Assembly: GCA_003645645.1 (NCBI GenBank)
Contig: QNBH01000006.1
Location: 1 to 44,237, forward strand
DNA from: Spirochaetota bacterium
GTDB lineage: Bacteria > Spirochaetota > Spirochaetia > SPDA01 > B32-G16
Length of the DNA: 44,237 nucleotides
Direction: 5' to 3'
A program made the position numbers and the translations under genes. Each line of letters opens with the position of its first letter. The stretch's first letter is position 1. Positions 4,578 through 44,237 of this stretch are shown piece after piece. The notes under the pieces were generated by a model. It searched no databases and was not told the origin of the DNA. It was given only the letters and a program-made list of their open reading frames with translations.

Positions 4578-5697
4578 TAATAAACTTCTCAAGCTGGCTC
4601 TCCAGATTCCGCGGGATCATTATCTCCTTGATAGAATCTATCGCATAGTCGTCAGTCATACCTGCAATATAATCGATTACCAGGTTATCAAACCCTCCGT
4701 TCATGTTTTTATAAAAATCGTGCATTTTCTTAAGATAATCGGCAAAACGAAGAGAGAGCATATTTCTCTCCTGGTTGTACTTTTGAAAATCAAAACCGTA
4801 TTTTTCGAAGCATTCTAAAAGATAGCCGTACAGAGTGGTTAAAATCCTTTCGAAAAACTTGTGATACCCCGCCAGCGTTGGATTTTCGTAGATATGATCA
4901 TAGTTAAAACTCTTTAAGGTCATAACTGCCTCGTAAACAGGATCGGAAAGGGCAATCGCTCCTTTCCTAGGAGATACAGAGCTTATATCATTTACAAGTG
5001 TATCTATAATTTCACTGTTCTTACTTCCGAGACGCTTCGATACAATACCTGGAATATCCTCATTTCGAATGAGCTTTAGCTGGATGGCATCTTCCATATC
5101 TCTACCCAGGTAGGCAACCTTATCGGCCATTCTTACCACCGTACCTTCCCAAGTGGCAGGATAGCTGCCGAGCGTCTTTATTTTTTTAAGATTCTTATAC
5201 TCGAAATCGGGTCTCATTTCCTGCTCAAACTGCTCGCCGCAGTGGGTGATTATTCCGTCTCTTACAGCATAGGTTAAGTTAAGCCCCTTTCCGTAATTAA
5301 CCAGATGATCCACAACCCTCAGCGAGTAGAGCTCATGGATAAATCTACCCCCCCTCTCTTTAAGCAGATTATCGAGAATCTTCTCTCCAACATGCCCAAA
5401 CGGTGCATGCCCCAGATCGTGCCCCAGACTTATAGCCCAGGCCATATCAACATCCAGCCCCAGCGCCTTACAGAGAGTAGCCGATATCGTGGCTACGTGC
5501 ATGACATGCTCTATCCGCGTACAGATATGGTCGTTTTTAGGAGAAAAAAATACCTGGGTCTTGTGTTTCAATCTTCTGAAAGGATAGGAGTGGATTATGG
5601 CCGTGGTGTCTCTGAAATAGTATCCTCTCAGGTCTTCCTCTCTCGGGCGCTCTCTCCTTTGAAGAATCTTTTGATCTATCTTGTTTTCAAACTTCAT
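4570..5697 (-). CDS. dgt: dGTPase-like HD-domain triphosphohydrolase
   Basis: A 375-residue HD-superfamily protein expected to hydrolyse dGTP or another dNTP to the deoxynucleoside and triphosphate. The N-terminus carries the family pattern FRDTTAIIHSYPFRRLKHKT. Metal ligands are visible as H64 (RIEHVMHV), H93-D94 (LGHDLGHAPFGH) and a later Asp in VVRMADKVAYLGRD. The length fits the shorter Dgt-like class and is well below the roughly 500 residues of E. coli Dgt. The start lies inside the last codons of the lipoate ligase gene (11-base overlap) with only a weak ribosome site, which suggests translational coupling. The 3' end overlaps the convergent ASKHA gene by 8 bases. Confidence 0.88.
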   Translation of the reverse strand: MKFENKIDQKILQRRERPREEDLRGYYFRDTTAIIHSYPFRRLKHKTQVFFSPKNDHICTRIEHVMHVATISATLCKALGLDVDMAWAISLGHDLGHAPFGHVGEKILDNLLKERGGRFIHELYSLRVVDHLVNYGKGLNLTYAVRDGIITHCGEQFEQEMRPDFEYKNLKKIKTLGSYPATWEGTVVRMADKVAYLGRDMEDAIQLKLIRNEDIPGIVSKRLGSKNSEIIDTLVNDISSVSPRKGAIALSDPVYEAVMTLKSFNYDHIYENPTLAGYHKFFERILTTLYGYLLECFEKYGFDFQKYNQERNMLSLRFADYLKKMHDFYKNMNGGFDNLVIDYIAGMTDDYAIDSIKEIMIPRNLESQLEKFIIT

Positions 5698-29402: not shown

Positions 29403-29936
29403 TTATGTAACGAGCCGTTTCATTGATACAACACCGATAAAATGACGCTTATCGAACGCCGCCTTGATAAGTGACGTCTGGTCGTTTCGGCTGGACGTAT
29501 TGACCATGAGAATCTCACCCTCACACAGTGTCTCTCCGAATCGATCGACCATCTCGACAATATCCCCTTTTTTCGGCAGGGGCAGATATTCGAACGGAAA
29601 AATGATTGAAGCACGATCCTGCTCAAAGGTGTAATCCTTTACATAGATGGCCAATCCCGGGCACGATGGCAAGCAGAGTCCACATCCAGTACACTTTCCT
29701 GCATCCAGCATTGGAAGCTCGGTAATATTATCTCCAATGGTTATCGCCCCTCTGGGGCATGCCGTCTCACAGGGATTGCAGGGAATTTTTTCGACACACT
29801 CTATGAATGCAACAGGTCCTGCGTAGAGGAACTCCTCCGATGGAAATCCGGGTGTTTGTGTCAGTTCCTCCAAGGTTGGAGTACCGCTCGTCTTGACTCC
29901 TTCAGACTGCCAAGCCTTTTTTTTCGTATCATTCAT
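29403..29936 (-). CDS. Two-cluster 4Fe-4S ferredoxin, probable electron acceptor subunit
   Basis: 177 residues from the ATG at 29936, which overlaps the TGA of the upstream flavoprotein gene by four bases (ATGA). Two cysteine motifs, CNPCETACPRGAI and CTGCGLCLPSCPGLAI, each supply four ligands, three before a proline-capped fourth, for [4Fe-4S] clusters. The C-terminal third (KKGDIVEMVDRFGETLCEGE) forms a small beta-rich domain with a nucleotide-sensing or docking look. It is the last gene of the island operon. By position it should carry electrons from the flavoprotein dehydrogenase to the respiratory or Rnf system, an inference. An upstream in-frame start would overlap the flavoprotein gene by about 90 bases and is unlikely. 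Confidence 0.85.
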   Translation of the reverse strand: MNDTKKKAWQSEGVKTSGTPTLEELTQTPGFPSEEFLYAGPVAFIECVEKIPCNPCETACPRGAITIGDNITELPMLDAGKCTGCGLCLPSCPGLAIYVKDYTFEQDRASIIFPFEYLPLPKKGDIVEMVDRFGETLCEGEILMVNTSSRNDQTSLIKAAFDKRHFIGVVSMKRLVT

Positions 29937-31030
29937 TGTGTCATGCTCTTCATAGAGATAATCTTCTCCTTCGCCTTTCTCCGACCCTCTCCAAACGGAC
30001 CAGACCTCAGAACATCCAGACGCTCCCATATCTGGTGGGAGAGCTCTTCCTCTTTGTCCGCGGAATAGAGCCCGAGGGAAGCTGAGGCATGGATTCCCGA
30101 AAGACGTCCCTCCTCCATCGCAGTGCTCGCCTCTTCCACCCCAGCTATATCACCTGCAACATAGATGGATTCTATACTTGTCCTCATCCGTCTGTCATGG
30201 ACCGGAACATGTCCTCCGAGGGATGGTATGAAACATATTTCGCATCCTGCTAACATTGCCAATTCGATTAGAGGTGTGAGTCCAGCAGCGATACAGACCG
30301 TATCGGCTTCTAACTCCTTTTCGGTGCCCGCTACAGGTTTCCAATACTCATCCAACCTCACGATCACCACTGACTCGACCGACTCCTTTCCTCTAGCTTC
30401 CAGGACTGTATGAGAGGTGAAAAAGGGTACTCCGGCTCGTCTCAACTTAGCCGTATGCACGCCGTATCCCCCGAGTCGCGGAGCCGCCTCTACGACTGCG
30501 ATGACATCGGCTCCCGCCTGGAGCAACTGGTACGAGACAATCACCCCAACGTTACCGGATCCGATCATTACTACACGATTCCCGGGAATGACCCGATGGA
30601 GGTTGATCATCGTTTGCGCTGCTCCCGCCCCCATGACGCCCGGTAAAGTCCACCCGGAGAACGCAACGGCATTCTCGGTCGCTCCGGTAGCCAGAATGAT
30701 CTTCCGAGCCTTCAAACGTCGGGATTCCCGGCGATTTTTAACTATCCATAGTTCCGTACCACCGTATATGCCGCATACTTCACAGTTCAGCCAAACGTCT
30801 ATATCGAGTTTGCGGGCCCTAAGCAGTAGTTCTTCTCCGATGCGGAACCCACGGACACCAGCGTGGTGCTCACGGGAGCCGAAGAACTTATGGATCTGCT
30901 TGAAAAGCTGCCCACCTGGTTTTGTGTTTTCATCGATCAAAATGACATTGGCTCCGGCCTCTGCGCACTCTATGGCCGCAGAAAGCCCTGCAGGGCCCGC
31001 TCCAACGACCGCCACATCAGTGAATACCAT
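29933..31030 (-). CDS. FAD/NAD-binding subunit of a multi-component amino-acid dehydrogenase (HcnB/OoxA-like)
   Basis: 365 residues. It starts VAVVGAGPAGLSAAIECAEA (GxGxxG at 10-15), the FAD Rossmann motif, and has a second nucleotide fold, VVMIGSGNVGVIVSYQL. IILATGATENAVAF and IYVAGDIAGVEEAS are hallmark segments of the pyridine-nucleotide-disulfide group. It resembles the HcnB/opine-oxidase/D-hydroxyproline-dehydrogenase alpha subunit, but the C-terminal BFD-type [2Fe-2S] domain usual in that subunit is absent and is encoded as a separate small gene two positions upstream. The ATG at 31030 follows GGAGGAG and overlaps the preceding gene by 14 bases. It forms a complex with the adjacent iron-sulfur and DAO-type products by family analogy. 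Confidence 0.85.
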   Translation of the reverse strand: MVFTDVAVVGAGPAGLSAAIECAEAGANVILIDENTKPGGQLFKQIHKFFGSREHHAGVRGFRIGEELLLRARKLDIDVWLNCEVCGIYGGTELWIVKNRRESRRLKARKIILATGATENAVAFSGWTLPGVMGAGAAQTMINLHRVIPGNRVVMIGSGNVGVIVSYQLLQAGADVIAVVEAAPRLGGYGVHTAKLRRAGVPFFTSHTVLEARGKESVESVVIVRLDEYWKPVAGTEKELEADTVCIAAGLTPLIELAMLAGCEICFIPSLGGHVPVHDRRMRTSIESIYVAGDIAGVEEASTAMEEGRLSGIHASASLGLYSADKEEELSHQIWERLDVLRSGPFGEGRRKAKEKIISMKSMTQ

Positions 31031-31352
31031 GATCTCCTCCCCCCCAGCGGCCAATACCTCGCTGGGTTTCGATAATCATTCCGGGTTCCACTGGTGTAAC
31101 ACATGTACGGACATTAGGAATGCCATTGACGATCATTACACAGTCGGTGCATCTTCCGATCGCGCAGTAGAGGCCCCGGGGCTCTCGTCGTTTTTCTGTA
31201 TAACGGAATACTCGTCTCCCCGATGCCATCAGGGCTGCTGCAATCATCTCGCCTTCGTAGGCGATAACTTCCTCTCCATCCACAAGGATTGAGACCTCCC
31301 TCCCTGAAGGCTTCAACGGTCCGAGTATGGGATGTTCAGCTATTCTTGACAT
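31017..31352 (-). CDS. [2Fe-2S] ferredoxin-like subunit (HcnA/SoxA-N-like)
   Basis: 111 residues with a plant-type [2Fe-2S] pattern: C63, C68, C71 and C84 (YCAIGRCTDC then VRTC). The N-terminal part has the beta-grasp start VSILVDGEEVIAYEGEMIAAAL. It matches the small subunit of HCN synthase, opine oxidase and D-hydroxyproline dehydrogenase complexes, where it shuttles electrons between the flavin subunits. GAGGGGG precedes the ATG by four bases. Both ends overlap its neighbours (17 and 14 bases), which implies tightly coupled translation and a fixed stoichiometry. Confidence 0.87.
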   Translation of the reverse strand: MSRIAEHPILGPLKPSGREVSILVDGEEVIAYEGEMIAAALMASGRRVFRYTEKRREPRGLYCAIGRCTDCVMIVNGIPNVRTCVTPVEPGMIIETQRGIGRWGGGDHGIH

Positions 31353-39439: not shown

Positions 39440-39682
39440 ATGGAGACTATTTCTGTATCTAAACTCAAGGCACACTTAAGTGCCGAATTAAAGAAGGTTA
39501 AAAAGGGTGTCCGGATTGTAGTAGTTGATCATAAACGGCCGGTTGCAGTTCTCTCCCCCTTTGAATCCGAGCCTCTCTTTTTGCAGGAAGCCTCAAAAAC
39601 GTACGAATACAGAGAACTCTCTCCTCTTACACACACCGATCCTCTTGTTAAGCTAAATGAGGAACGGGAAGATCGATGTTAG
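39440..39682 (+). CDS. Phd/YefM-type antitoxin
   Basis: 80 residues. METISVSKLKAHLSAELKKV and then VRIVVVDHKRPVAVLSPFE is the fold of the Phd/YefM family, whose N-terminus dimerises and binds the operon's own promoter. The C-terminal tail (LFLQEASKTYEYRELSPLTH) should wrap and neutralise the PIN toxin encoded next, with which it overlaps by 7 bases. No ribosome site lies before the ATG, consistent with a leaderless message. The last 123 bases before the final codons are duplicated at 29191-29313. Confidence 0.88.
   Translation: METISVSKLKAHLSAELKKVKKGVRIVVVDHKRPVAVLSPFESEPLFLQEASKTYEYRELSPLTHTDPLVKLNEEREDRC
39545..39667 (+). repeat. 123-bp direct repeat, right copy (island boundary)
   Basis: Same orientation and 119 of 123 bases identical to 29191-29313. 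It lies wholly inside the intact antitoxin gene. Recombination between the two copies would delete 10354 bases, exactly the catabolic operon and its regulator. Confidence 0.9.
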
Positions 39683-40098
39683 GTTACCTCGATTCCTCTG
39701 TAGCGTTACGTCGTATCCTGCTCGGAGAAGCAGCTATTTTTCAGGTGTTTAATTGTGAAAGCGTAGTGTCGAGTGAGCTTCTTGAAGTTGAGTGTCGCCG
39801 TGTTATTTATCGATATCGTATGGATGGGGATATAGATGATGAAGGCCTTATTCAGGCTTTCGAACGGCTGGAAATGATCCTCAAGGGAATATCGATACTG
39901 GCTCTTTCACGGACAATTAAAAAACGGGCAATGGGACCGTTTCCGGTAAGTATTAAAACTCTCGATGCACTACATCTTGCTTCCGCCCTTGTACTTGCCG
40001 AAAACCGGCAGGATGAGACAATCTTAATATTCTCACATGATGTTGCGATGAATCGCTGTGCAAGGGCACTCGGTTTCTCAACCCCTTTTTTGGAGTAG
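39676..40098 (+). CDS. vapC: PIN-domain toxin, VapC-like ribonuclease
   Basis: 140 residues. The PIN acidic residues are in place: D6 (GYLDSSVALRRIL), a Glu in ELLEVECRR (E34 or E37), D97 (KTLDALHLASAL) and D122 (FSHDVAMNRCARALGF). VapC toxins are magnesium-dependent endoribonucleases, often cutting tRNA or rRNA. The ATG overlaps the end of the antitoxin gene by 7 bases, with GGAACGGGAAG upstream, so the two are translationally coupled and toxin cannot be made without antitoxin message. The pair appears intact and functional. Confidence 0.88.
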   Translation: MLGYLDSSVALRRILLGEAAIFQVFNCESVVSSELLEVECRRVIYRYRMDGDIDDEGLIQAFERLEMILKGISILALSRTIKKRAMGPFPVSIKTLDALHLASALVLAENRQDETILIFSHDVAMNRCARALGFSTPFLE

Positions 40099-40351: not shown

Positions 40352-41626
40352 TTGCAAACGAAAACTATTACTATTATTTTTTGTGCACTTGCCCTGATCG
40401 GAAGCCTCTTTTCGATTATTCTCGAAACACCTGTTTTCATGTATCCCACGGCCTTTATGATTTTTGCTACTCTTCTTCTTCTGATTTTAAAAAAATCTCT
40501 TTTAGATGAAAAACGAGAAGAGGAGAAAGAAAGCAACCACAAAGATAGGGAAAATATAGAACTTAAAAAACAGATAGACAATTTAGAAGTAAGAATAGAG
40601 ACAATTGAGAAAGAAAAACTGGATTATCAGGAGAAGCTCCATAGTATTTTCAACAATTTTCAGCTTTTCAAGCATTCTTCTCCTGTAATGGAGAACTTAA
40701 GCCGTCTTGTAATCGATAAGTCGGAGGCCTCTGTAAATCAGACCACAGAGAGCATCTTCGCTATTGCAGAAACCAGCAAGGAAGTAGGAGAAAATATTCA
40801 GCAGATGCTCAATGAGCTTTCCAAGGGAGAGAAAAGCCTTACAGAGACGGTTAAAAAACTACTCGAAGAGGTAAAGCATCAGGAGCCACTCATAAAAGAC
40901 TATATTTCAATCAGTAAAAGCTACAACCAGGATATGAAGATAATCGAGCAAACTGTAAAAACGATAAACGAGTTTACAAGCACAATAACCGATCTCTCGG
41001 AAAGAACCGGCATTCTTGCAATCAACGCATCGATAGAAACTGCAAGAGGGGGCGAACGCGGAAAGGGATTCTCGGTAATAGCAGAAGAGGTACAGAAACT
41101 GGCAGCTCATTCAAAAGAGATTGCCACACAAATCAACCAGCGCATCCTCTTAACTGCCGAGAAGGTAGACGAATCTTTCGAAAAAAACTCAAATTATATA
41201 CAGAAATCAATATCAATGCTTGAAACTTCCAGGGATTCACTTAAGAGCATTTCTTCTTTACTGGATTCACAGGTAAATATGATCGTAGGATCGGTGGAAG
41301 AATCCAGAAAACTATCAGGCACTCTTACAGACAGGCTTAACAATTTAATTGTTTCATTTCAATATCAAGATATAACCAGGCGGGTGCTTGAACACATGCT
41401 GGAAATACTGGAAGAAATAAAGATGACCTGTAAGCTGATTTTTGATAAGATGGAAAAAGAGAGCCCGGTGGATTCTACTCGGTACAAAGAGCGAATAAAA
41501 GAGATAGCAGTAAAATACCTTACAGTAAGAGAGGAGTGGGATGTTCTGGGTATCGACTTCGACGAATACAGGGAAGCTGAAACTACCAGAAGGGTGGCTT
41601 TTAAGGGAGATGTTACTCTATTCTAA
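40352..41626 (+). CDS. Methyl-accepting chemotaxis-type signalling protein without ligand domain
   Basis: 424 residues. Two N-terminal membrane helices (about 6-24 and 29-47) with almost no periplasmic loop are followed by a charged coiled coil (50-100). The MCP signalling hairpin follows, with its tip in [20 protein letters not shown] and [14 protein letters not shown]. There is no HAMP or sensing domain. A later [17 protein letters not shown] segment is typical of short, McpS-like or regulatory members. The start is TTG with AAAGGGG about 11 bases upstream; no in-frame ATG is nearby. It is followed by receiver/Hpt/CheW sequences, so it probably belongs to one chemosensory cluster. Confidence 0.8.
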
Positions 41627-41673
41627 GAACTACACCCGGCTTAATTGCAACAATTTAATTCATGGGAGGCGAA

Positions 41674-42009
41674 ATGAGTAAAAAAGTTTTTTGTGTGGAT
41701 GATGCTCCTGCCATTCTCATGCTTCTGAAGAAGGCACTGCAACCGGAGGGATATTCGGTAGTTGAGGCAAAAAACGGTAAGGAGGCGCTGGAGAAACTCA
41801 ACAGAGAAGATATAAGCAGTGATATTTCGTTGTTCATTGTTGATGTAAATATTCCTGTCATGGATGGTTTTGAGTTCGTAAAAAACCTAAAGAGCAATGA
41901 GAACTTTAAGAGCAAACCGGTAATCTTTCTTACCACAGAGAGCTCAGCCCGAAAAAAAAGAAATGGTCAAGGAACTGGGAGTAAACAAATGGGTTGTAAA
42001 GCCCTTTGA
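41674..42009 (+). CDS. CheY-like receiver domain, reading frame broken by frameshift
   Basis: As written this frame encodes 111 residues. D9/D10 (VFCVDDAP), phosphoacceptor D57 (LFIVDVNIPVMDGFEF) and the TT of VIFLTTES are all present. After SSARKK the frame turns to RNGQGTGSKQMGCKAL and stops, losing the final helix and the conserved lysine. The missing end, EMVKELGVNKWVVKPFDPLS, is found in the +1 frame. Skipping one base in the A8 run 41952-41959 restores a complete receiver domain continuing into the Hpt protein. I chose the ATG at 41674 after GGGAGG; the ATG at 41662 lies before that site. Confidence 0.75.
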   Translation: MSKKVFCVDDAPAILMLLKKALQPEGYSVVEAKNGKEALEKLNREDISSDISLFIVDVNIPVMDGFEFVKNLKSNENFKSKPVIFLTTESSARKKRNGQGTGSKQMGCKAL

Positions 42010-43672
42010 CCCTCTTTCGCTTTTAAAGGTTGTTAAAATGCTTGCTGGATTGGTATTGATGAAAGAGGAAATTGTAAAACTAATAGAACTTCTAAAAAAT
42101 TATACGCCCGGAGATCTCGTTCTTGCACTTGAGATAAAGGAGTTGTGCGGTAATCTTACCGATATCCCCCTGATCTCTTCAATTGAGAAATATTTTGAAA
42201 CAATTATGAGAGAGGGGCCTGAGTCGAACACTCAAGCTACGGTAAATGGTTTTATTAAAGAGCTTAATAATTATTTCGCCGAAACAACAGGAGAAAAGAA
42301 ACAGATAAAATCCCCCGAAATAAAGGGCTACACCAAACCCACTGCAATAGATGACAGGGAAGTGCTTCTCTCTTTTATCCAGGAGGGACAGGATCATCTC
42401 CAAAATATTGAGGAAAAGATTTTAGCTCTGGAAAGGGAGAGGAATATCGAACTGGTAGACGATATCTTTAGATCAATGCATACCATAAAGAGTGTTTCCT
42501 CTTTTCTCGGTCTGGAAAAGATTAAGACATTAAGCCATTATCTTGAAACCGTGCTCGATGAGATAAGAGAGAAGAAGCTGGAAGTATCCTCGGAGCTTAT
42601 CGACAGCTTACTTAAAGGAGCGGATATGCTCACATTCATGATAGAAGAGCTTTCCAGGAAATCGATGGATCCTGTTGTATCGAAGACCCCTGTCTCTGAT
42701 TTAGAATCTGAGTTCGACATCTCCTCAACTGTAAGACTATTAGAAGAAACCATCGTCTCCCTTACCGAGAAGGATAGAGAAATCGTTACCGAAGAGATGA
42801 TCGGTAAATTTATTCAGGAATCGGCGGAATTTCTTAACGATATAGAAGATAAACTTCTTACCTTTAAGCAGGAGACCAAAAACACCCGGATGTTGCCTTC
42901 TGTGTTTCGATCGGTCCATACAATAAAAGGAAACTCAGGCTTTTTAGGTTTCAACACAATAGAAAGCCTATGCGCCGATATGGAAATAGTCCTCGACAGG
43001 TTTATAAAAAAGGAGAAGGTGCCGGAAGAAAAGGCAATTTCTGTATTGCTCAACACTGTAGAGGCGATTCGTAACAAACTGGCCTTTATTCACAAAGAGA
43101 AGGTAGATGAAGAGACGCCAGAGGAAGAATCAGAGGAGGAAACAGTTCAATACAAACCATTGGGTGAAACACTGGTGAAAATGGGTAATGTTACCAGAGA
43201 GGAAATAGAAGAGGCTCTGGAGCTCCAGCAGAGAAAGTTGGGAGAGATTCTTACCCTGGCCATTGTAGAAGGGATTACATTCCGTGTTGGAAAGAAAATA
43301 TTCTCGTTACCTATAAGCGAAGTAATCGAGTTCCATAAAGCAGAGGAGAAACAGATTACAACAACCGAACGAGAAAAGGATATACTCAGATCAAGAGATG
43401 AAATCATTCCCATTGTAAAAATATACGAAGTATTCGATATCCCGGAGGCAAAGAGAAATATAACGGAAGGCGTTTTAATGATAGTCTCTGCAAACGGGAA
43501 GAAAGCCGCCTTCCTTACCGATGAGATACAGGGATACAGGCAGTTGGTTATGAAAAGGCTTCCCGATTACCTCGACAATATAGAGGGGCTATCCGGCTGC
43601 AGTATTCTTGGTAACGGAGAAGTAAGTCTTATAATAGATACCAGTTCTATTCTGGGAAGAGTTCTTGAATGA
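41963..43672 (+). CDS. Hpt-Hpt-CheW protein, CheA-like without kinase domain (3' part of frameshifted gene)
   Basis: 569 residues in the frame used here; the first about 30 complete the preceding receiver domain. Two histidine-phosphotransfer domains follow, each with the phospho-histidine motif: SMHTIKSVSSFLG (near residue 175) and SVHTIKGNSGFLG (near 318). A linker like those of spirochaete CheA (PLGETLVKMGNVTREEIEEA) leads straight to TLAIVEGITFRVGKKIFSLP, a CheA C-terminal CheW-like domain. The dimerisation and ATP-binding domains that should lie between are absent; the join is at LGEIL-TLAIVEG, about 43250. It could be a natural phosphorelay scaffold or the product of an internal deletion. 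A start at ATG 42060 is possible but lacks a ribosome site. Confidence 0.75.
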   Translation: MVKELGVNKWVVKPFDPLSLLKVVKMLAGLVLMKEEIVKLIELLKNYTPGDLVLALEIKELCGNLTDIPLISSIEKYFETIMREGPESNTQATVNGFIKELNNYFAETTGEKKQIKSPEIKGYTKPTAIDDREVLLSFIQEGQDHLQNIEEKILALERERNIELVDDIFRSMHTIKSVSSFLGLEKIKTLSHYLETVLDEIREKKLEVSSELIDSLLKGADMLTFMIEELSRKSMDPVVSKTPVSDLESEFDISSTVRLLEETIVSLTEKDREIVTEEMIGKFIQESAEFLNDIEDKLLTFKQETKNTRMLPSVFRSVHTIKGNSGFLGFNTIESLCADMEIVLDRFIKKEKVPEEKAISVLLNTVEAIRNKLAFIHKEKVDEETPEEESEEETVQYKPLGETLVKMGNVTREEIEEALELQQRKLGEILTLAIVEGITFRVGKKIFSLPISEVIEFHKAEEKQITTTEREKDILRSRDEIIPIVKIYEVFDIPEAKRNITEGVLMIVSANGKKAAFLTDEIQGYRQLVMKRLPDYLDNIEGLSGCSILGNGEVSLIIDTSSILGRVLE

Positions 43673-43691
43673 GAGAGACCCTGGAGGGAAG

Positions 43692-44237
43692 ATGCTTCAC
43701 CCCGATGATGCAGTTGCTATTATAGAGAAAATAGAAAAACAACCTGAAACAGAATTGATAGATATAAAGGATTCCCTGGGCAGAGTGCTCGCCGAGAAAA
43801 TCTTCTCCTCTCTGGACTCGCCTCCCTTTTCAAAAGCCGCCATGGACGGATACGCCGTATCCGCTCAGGACGAATCGAAAAGTTATAATATCGTAGAGAC
43901 TATCGCTGCAGGCGATGTTCCAACAAAAAAAATAACCCGCGGAACCTGTGCAAAAATTATGACAGGAGCGATGATGCCAGAGGGCTCCGATAAGGTAATC
44001 CGGGTAGAGTACACTGAAGAGAAAGATGGTACGATGGTTCTACTCCGGAATGAATCCTTAAAAAACGTAATAGTTAAAGGAGAAAAACTGAAGAAGGGTG
44101 ACATAGTCCTCGCCCCAGGGGTTATTCGACCGCAAGAGGTGGGAGTTCTCGCAAGCCTCGGGCTAAAACAGATCAGGGTAGCAGTTCCGCCTCCTGTAGG
44201 TGTAATAACTACCGGCTCAGAATTGAGAGAACCCGGA
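43692..44237 (+). CDS. moeA: Molybdopterin molybdenumtransferase MoeA, partial (runs off right edge)
   Basis: 182 codons are present and the frame is open to the window end. It begins at an ATG after GGAGGG, 20 bases beyond the stop of the chemotaxis gene. MoeA inserts molybdate into adenylated molybdopterin. Visible family motifs are the N-terminal LGRVLAEKI, PPFSKAAMDGYAV, MTGAMMPEGSDKVIRVE and the start of the MoaB-like domain, VGVITTGSEL. This is about half of a normal 400-residue MoeA. A molybdenum-cofactor gene fits the presence of the ygfK/ssnA/ygeY set, which is associated with molybdenum hydroxylases, although those genes are 16 kb away. Confidence 0.9.
   Translation, partial: MLHPDDAVAIIEKIEKQPETELIDIKDSLGRVLAEKIFSSLDSPPFSKAAMDGYAVSAQDESKSYNIVETIAAGDVPTKKITRGTCAKIMTGAMMPEGSDKVIRVEYTEEKDGTMVLLRNESLKNVIVKGEKLKKGDIVLAPGVIRPQEVGVLASLGLKQIRVAVPPPVGVITTGSELREPG

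Follow-up and report, generated by a model that had tools for sequence, protein, structure and literature searches.

At the right end of the window, which is the whole of contig C6 (44,237 bp) from a 3.98-Mb draft genome of 380 contigs with 4.12% contamination, lies what probably remains of an ordinary spirochaete CheA with two Hpt domains, from a third chemosensory operon now in the course of being lost by the lineage (probability about 0.6). Loss of an operon, rather than a new kind of signalling protein, most likely explains the locus. Comparison with relatives shows that an in-frame deletion of about 280 codons removed the second linker repeat together with P3 and P4, so that the linker now runs directly into an intact P5; the adjoining cheY carries a frameshift and no longer has its stop, the remainder of the operon is missing downstream, and a further copy on contig C140 is broken as well.

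The relatives of the window found by protein search were Spirochaetota. The ORF list and Pfam analysis revealed an MCP-like gene, a receiver ORF, an Hpt-Hpt-CheW ORF and the start of moeA, in this order, at the right end of the contig. The features assigned are:

40352-41626, + strand: intact gene for an MCP-like receptor of 424 aa, at the head of the operon (Pfam MCPsignal, E 2.7e-25).
41674-42009, + strand: cheY receiver frame with an early stop, without the KPF-bearing C-terminal part (Pfam Response_reg, 1-86 of 111).
41946-41962, + strand: stretch with the one-base offset between the two cheY parts (ORF frames, tblastn, tail/DNA comparison).
41963-42058, + strand: CheY C-terminal part (WVVKPF...), in the cheA frame (comparison with relatives' CheY).
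42050-42052, + strand: TTG codon at or beside the relatives' cheY stop site (relatives' CheY stops shortly past ML(T)G).
42059-43672, + strand: kinase-less cheA, Hpt-Hpt-linker-CheW, 537 aa from ATG 42059 (ORF list, Pfam, relatives' alignment).
42359-42613, + strand: Hpt domain 1, His at 42479 (HTIKS; Pfam Hpt, residues 133-217).
42776-43090, + strand: Hpt domain 2, bounds approximate, His at 42917 (HTIKGN; second Pfam Hpt stretch and alignment).
43154-43252, + strand: LGExL linker, repeat 1 whole, repeat 2 cut after LGEIL (relatives have two LGExL repeats, then the kinase).
43250-43252, + strand: deletion junction, the Leu codon common to LGEIL and LTLAI, 279-283 codons missing (motif distances).
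43268-43657, + strand: CheW/P5 domain, complete (PF01584, 78.2 bits, profile 1-135 of 138).
43692-44237, + strand: moeA, cut by the contig end, outside the operon (MoeA_N, E 4.9e-40 on ORF 43665-44237).

The receiver ORF starts at 41662 or 41674 and ends at 42009, 42059 is the probable own start of the kinase-less cheA, and ATG 43692 is the assumed start of moeA. The MCP showed up to 40% identity to the MCPs upstream of cheY-cheA in relatives and retained 22 of 24 conserved columns. Immediately upstream of these genes lies a small gene pair coding for a Phd/YefM-type antitoxin and a PIN-domain protein (39440-40098). Elsewhere in the window, a reductase-like gene (29933-31054) had a G+C content of 0.54 vs 0.39-0.49 in the other window genes measured and is possibly a recent import.

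The open frame of 569 aa (41963-43672) was matched twice by Pfam Hpt (E 6.7e-30, two stretches) and once by CheW. The phosphorylatable His, characteristic of the P1 domain of CheA, is kept in both Hpt domains, and the C-terminal domain is CheW-like as expected for P5. Neither H-kinase_dim (P3) nor HATPase_c (P4) was detected in the protein by Pfam at E ≤ 0.1; a genome-wide profile search did not find H-kinase_dim at this locus either, and the N-box/G-box segment of P4 was absent from the alignment with relatives. In agreement, an earlier note on this DNA had described two intact Hpt domains and a CheA-type CheW domain with the dimerisation and ATPase domains missing, and LGEIL joined directly to TLAIVEG; the two motifs were found to share the single leucine codon at 43250-43252. 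The protein thus combines P1 and P5 without a working P3/P4, as one partner of a CheA3/CheA4-type pair does, and would be expected to be unable to autophosphorylate.

In Spirochaetia, the corresponding operon has the order MCP-cheY-cheA-cheR-cheB-cheY-cheX, with all seven genes in order at 8 of the 28 relative loci examined (L051, L052, L055, L056, L057, L061, L079 and L089); the remainder were variants or cut contigs. Relatives have cheY as a gene of its own, closed by its own stop, and their cheA codes in turn for two Hpt domains, two LGExL repeats in the linker, P3, P4 and P5, a few relatives being without the linker repeats. In the window, moeA occupies the place held by cheR in relatives, and gene-order comparison showed the remainder of the operon to be missing downstream. 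The CheA of Candidatus Marispirochaeta associata JC231 (L095, 846 aa) resembles the window protein in its two Hpt domains, two LGExL repeats and P5, with 37% identity over the Hpt-linker part, but carries P3 and P4 between linker and P5. Operons of the JC231 type likewise share the MCP-cheY-cheA order with the window, whereas their cheY is intact and separate and cheR-cheB-cheX follow downstream.

The extent of the deletion was deduced from motif distances. From the second LGExL to the P5-opening LTLAI, 283-287 aa were counted in 13 relatives (those of the 18 listed in which the pattern found both motifs) vs 4 aa in the window; thus, the window gene is 279-283 codons (837-849 bp) shorter here, with the frame preserved. 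Together with the frame offset in cheY and the loss of its stop, this deletion of ~840 bp constitutes, relative to the intact orthologues, the kind of lesion by which pseudogenes are recognised. The earlier note had left open whether the gene codes for a kinase-free protein or has suffered a clean in-frame deletion, and had pointed to a segment of 700-900 bp in orthologues as decisive. A segment of ~837-849 bp is present there; the distances in orthologues support the deletion, and a natural kinase-free family was rejected because the orthologues examined carry the kinase segment at exactly this junction.

When a 95-aa piece spanning the junction was used as query, matches were obtained in 261 of 394 genomes of the class. 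Among the matches listed, the window alone spans the junction as one piece, besides one full CheA (G074:C81, 708 aa with kinase motifs) whose match reaches back to residue 12; the others begin with query residue 29-34, where P5 opens or just ahead of it, and lie in frames of at least 547 aa, the one exception being a frame of 160 aa situated at the end of a contig (G100). A motif check of 49 related loci identified the kinase N-box in 48 and the G-box in 47, the exceptions (L117 and L128) running off the contig or locus end. The 49 loci, drawn from the 78 of the alignment scan, comprised the records with Spirochaetota-type titles and a single Zixibacteria record, while the remaining 29 were set aside; many of the loci stem from genomes also covered by the junction-piece search, so that the counts of that search and the motif check are not independent. 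No kinase-less orthologue was present among the related loci checked or among the junction-piece matches listed. A search of the genome contigs found no relative when the window protein was the sole query, whereas the alignment scan did find relatives. In the other two members of the order searched, the orthologue was absent and only canonical CheA matches were obtained. At an SZUA-6 locus (L116, 1959-4354), two overlapping frames, divided near the first Hpt, make up the cheA orthologue; its kinase is present, and this is possibly a second case of damage in cheA.

The receiver upstream of the Hpt domains had been taken in the earlier note for the N-terminal domain of a REC-Hpt-Hpt-CheW protein. 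This assignment was abandoned, since the receiver lies in another frame, one base off, and cheY is a separate gene in relatives; the window cheY frame shares 42-56% identity with the separate cheY genes adjoining cheA there. In tblastn searches, CheY of relatives matched frame 1 as far as about 41985-42012, the matches in frame 2 beginning at 41927. As the KPF-bearing C-terminal part of CheY is read in the Hpt frame, a one-base offset must fall within about 41946-41962. A run of eight A residues (41952-41959) was considered as the particular site of the frame change, but comparison with relatives allows an offset just upstream equally well, so that slippage at the run is not particularly supported. 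Through the stop region of the relatives' cheY, the window reads MLAG-L-V-L-M, with no stop. It is very improbable that the loss of the cheY stop and the precise excision of P3-P4 were steps towards a fused REC-Hpt-Hpt-CheW protein, acting as a kinase-free relay or sink in chemoreceptor arrays and trans-phosphorylated by other CheAs; in that case, the one-base offset would be due to a sequencing error or a phase switch, or slippage would bypass it.

A diverged second copy of the operon, with many genes broken, was identified on contig C140 (L064). Its truncated cheA (L064:7591-8235, 32-35% identical) resembles that of the window in retaining an Hpt2-like domain and linker and in being cut, in frame, at the same KLGEI motif: KLGE runs straight into ISLILDT, which aligned to the last CheW residues. 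Unlike the window gene, it keeps these last CheW residues only and is followed by an intact cheR and a broken cheB, which carries a frameshift and forms a fusion with cheX; a frame offset also interrupts a receiver on this contig. The Hpt-containing frame on C140 ends at an in-frame TAG (4999-5001), before a half receiver. The broken signalling run (L064 1-8235) also holds a truncated hybrid kinase and a truncated MCP. Open frames on C140 code for an alcohol dehydrogenase (Pfam domains), a sigma-54 type regulator and two small heat-shock proteins, the names of the regulator and of the heat-shock proteins being a reading of the sequence. From the clustering of lesions in one system, at two places, we infer decay rather than adaptation.

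The recurrence of the same kind of lesion on C140 also speaks against the window sequence being an artefact of assembly or strain mixture, the true genome having an intact cheY-cheA and the contig having lost about 840 bp and gained one base. The draft state of the genome, with its many contigs and contamination, a contig end within about 1 kb of the junction and the proximity of several lesions to one another are in favour of such an error. However, the junction was free of repeats, and its DNA occurs only once in the genome; the repeat-based assembly collapse that the earlier note had proposed to check was therefore rejected. Composition is equal on either side of the junction, which likewise rejects a chimeric contig. 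A stray kinase fragment was not found either, the orthologue kinase query matching C155, C31, a diverged CheA-like gene on C238 and three short weak stretches. Nor do the other window genes examined carry such lesions: Pfam matches were obtained for 26 of the 29 other window proteins scanned, with no comparable internal domain loss, the three remaining proteins giving no match at the thresholds used and hence being uninformative. An artefact appears rather unlikely.

A full cheA elsewhere in the genome, which the earlier note had suggested looking for, was found twice: in a genome-wide search, H-kinase_dim occurred only on C31 and C155, each time in a full CheA with its own Hpt. The CheB methylesterase is complete on C155 and C276, and MCP domains were found at ten places including the window, in frames of 305-652 aa (four further MCP rows were a contig-end piece, one short frame containing a stop, and second matches to genes already counted). 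From these intact CheAs, complete CheBs and MCP frames, two other chemosensory systems look complete at the sequence level, and the two complete cheA genes could carry the function. The gene on C238 (L047, 885-2771, minus strand) codes for a CheA-like protein of 629 aa that has Hpt, P2 and HATPase, whereas neither H-kinase_dim nor CheW was matched by Pfam; it adjoins dnaK- and dnaJ-like genes and is possibly a strongly diverged CheA.

Two intact kinases would also be available to a working kinase-free CheA that docks to receptor arrays via P5 and is phosphorylated at its Hpt domains in trans by the CheA of C155 or C31, serving as relay or sink. The known working P1-P5 precedent is CheA3 of Rhodobacter (Cereibacter) sphaeroides, which, according to PMC10782961 and PMC3591291, has Hpt and CheW/P5 without a working kinase core, as in the window, and needs CheA4, by which it is phosphorylated; in contrast to the window protein, its middle region measures 794 aa and its operon also codes for a dedicated CheA4 partner. 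Both Hpt histidines, the full P5, a clean deletion at domain borders, the unreduced coding signal and the intact MCP upstream fit such a function. On the other hand, a CheA4-like P3-P4-P5 partner without P1 was not found in the operon or the genome by the H-kinase_dim and kinase-query searches, both H-kinase_dim genes being full CheAs with their own Hpt; relocation of the kinase was rejected by the same searches. Moreover, the adjoining cheY is broken, the C140 copy is heavily broken, and the Hpt-Hpt-CheW architecture occurs in no relative among the loci checked and matches listed. Six invariant residues are lost, including the Gly after His-X-X-Lys of Hpt1, where the window has Ser vs Gly in 19 of 19 other sequences. 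In PMC10782961, which also discusses bipartite and contig-end CheA cases, P1, P3, P4 and P5 are reported in all surveyed CheA homologues, so that a kinase-free CheA would be an exception. Taken together, a working protein of the CheA3 type is rather unlikely.

Some features speak against the decay that we favour. The kinase-less frame is 537 codons long without a stop and still coding-like: the codon log-odds beside the junction were 0.36 and 0.34 (0.13-0.33 in 23 reference genes), a signal unreduced on both sides as judged from codon usage. The deletion keeps the reading frame, for which chance alone would give one in three, and lies at domain borders, the deletion on C140 being likewise in frame, and the MCP is intact. 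The window cheA kept 64 of 70 conserved columns, the lowest value of 20 sequences, with an ordinary branch length; two intact relatives were close to it (70/75 and 65/69). Foldable Hpt and P5 domains would be predicted for a decaying and a working protein alike. If translated, the Hpt-Hpt-CheW protein could at most take part in receptor arrays via P5 and receive phosphate from another CheA, and this phosphate would have no intact CheY of its own as recipient.

Domain scans call for caution here, since in this draft genome one would return a kinase-free CheA at a place where the relatives indicate a deletion. A working remnant would join CheA3 as another CheA retained solely for phosphotransfer and array docking. 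If, as we favour, the operon is decaying, the locus would provide a snapshot of the dismantling of a redundant chemosensory operon, with the kinase lost in two copies within one genome.
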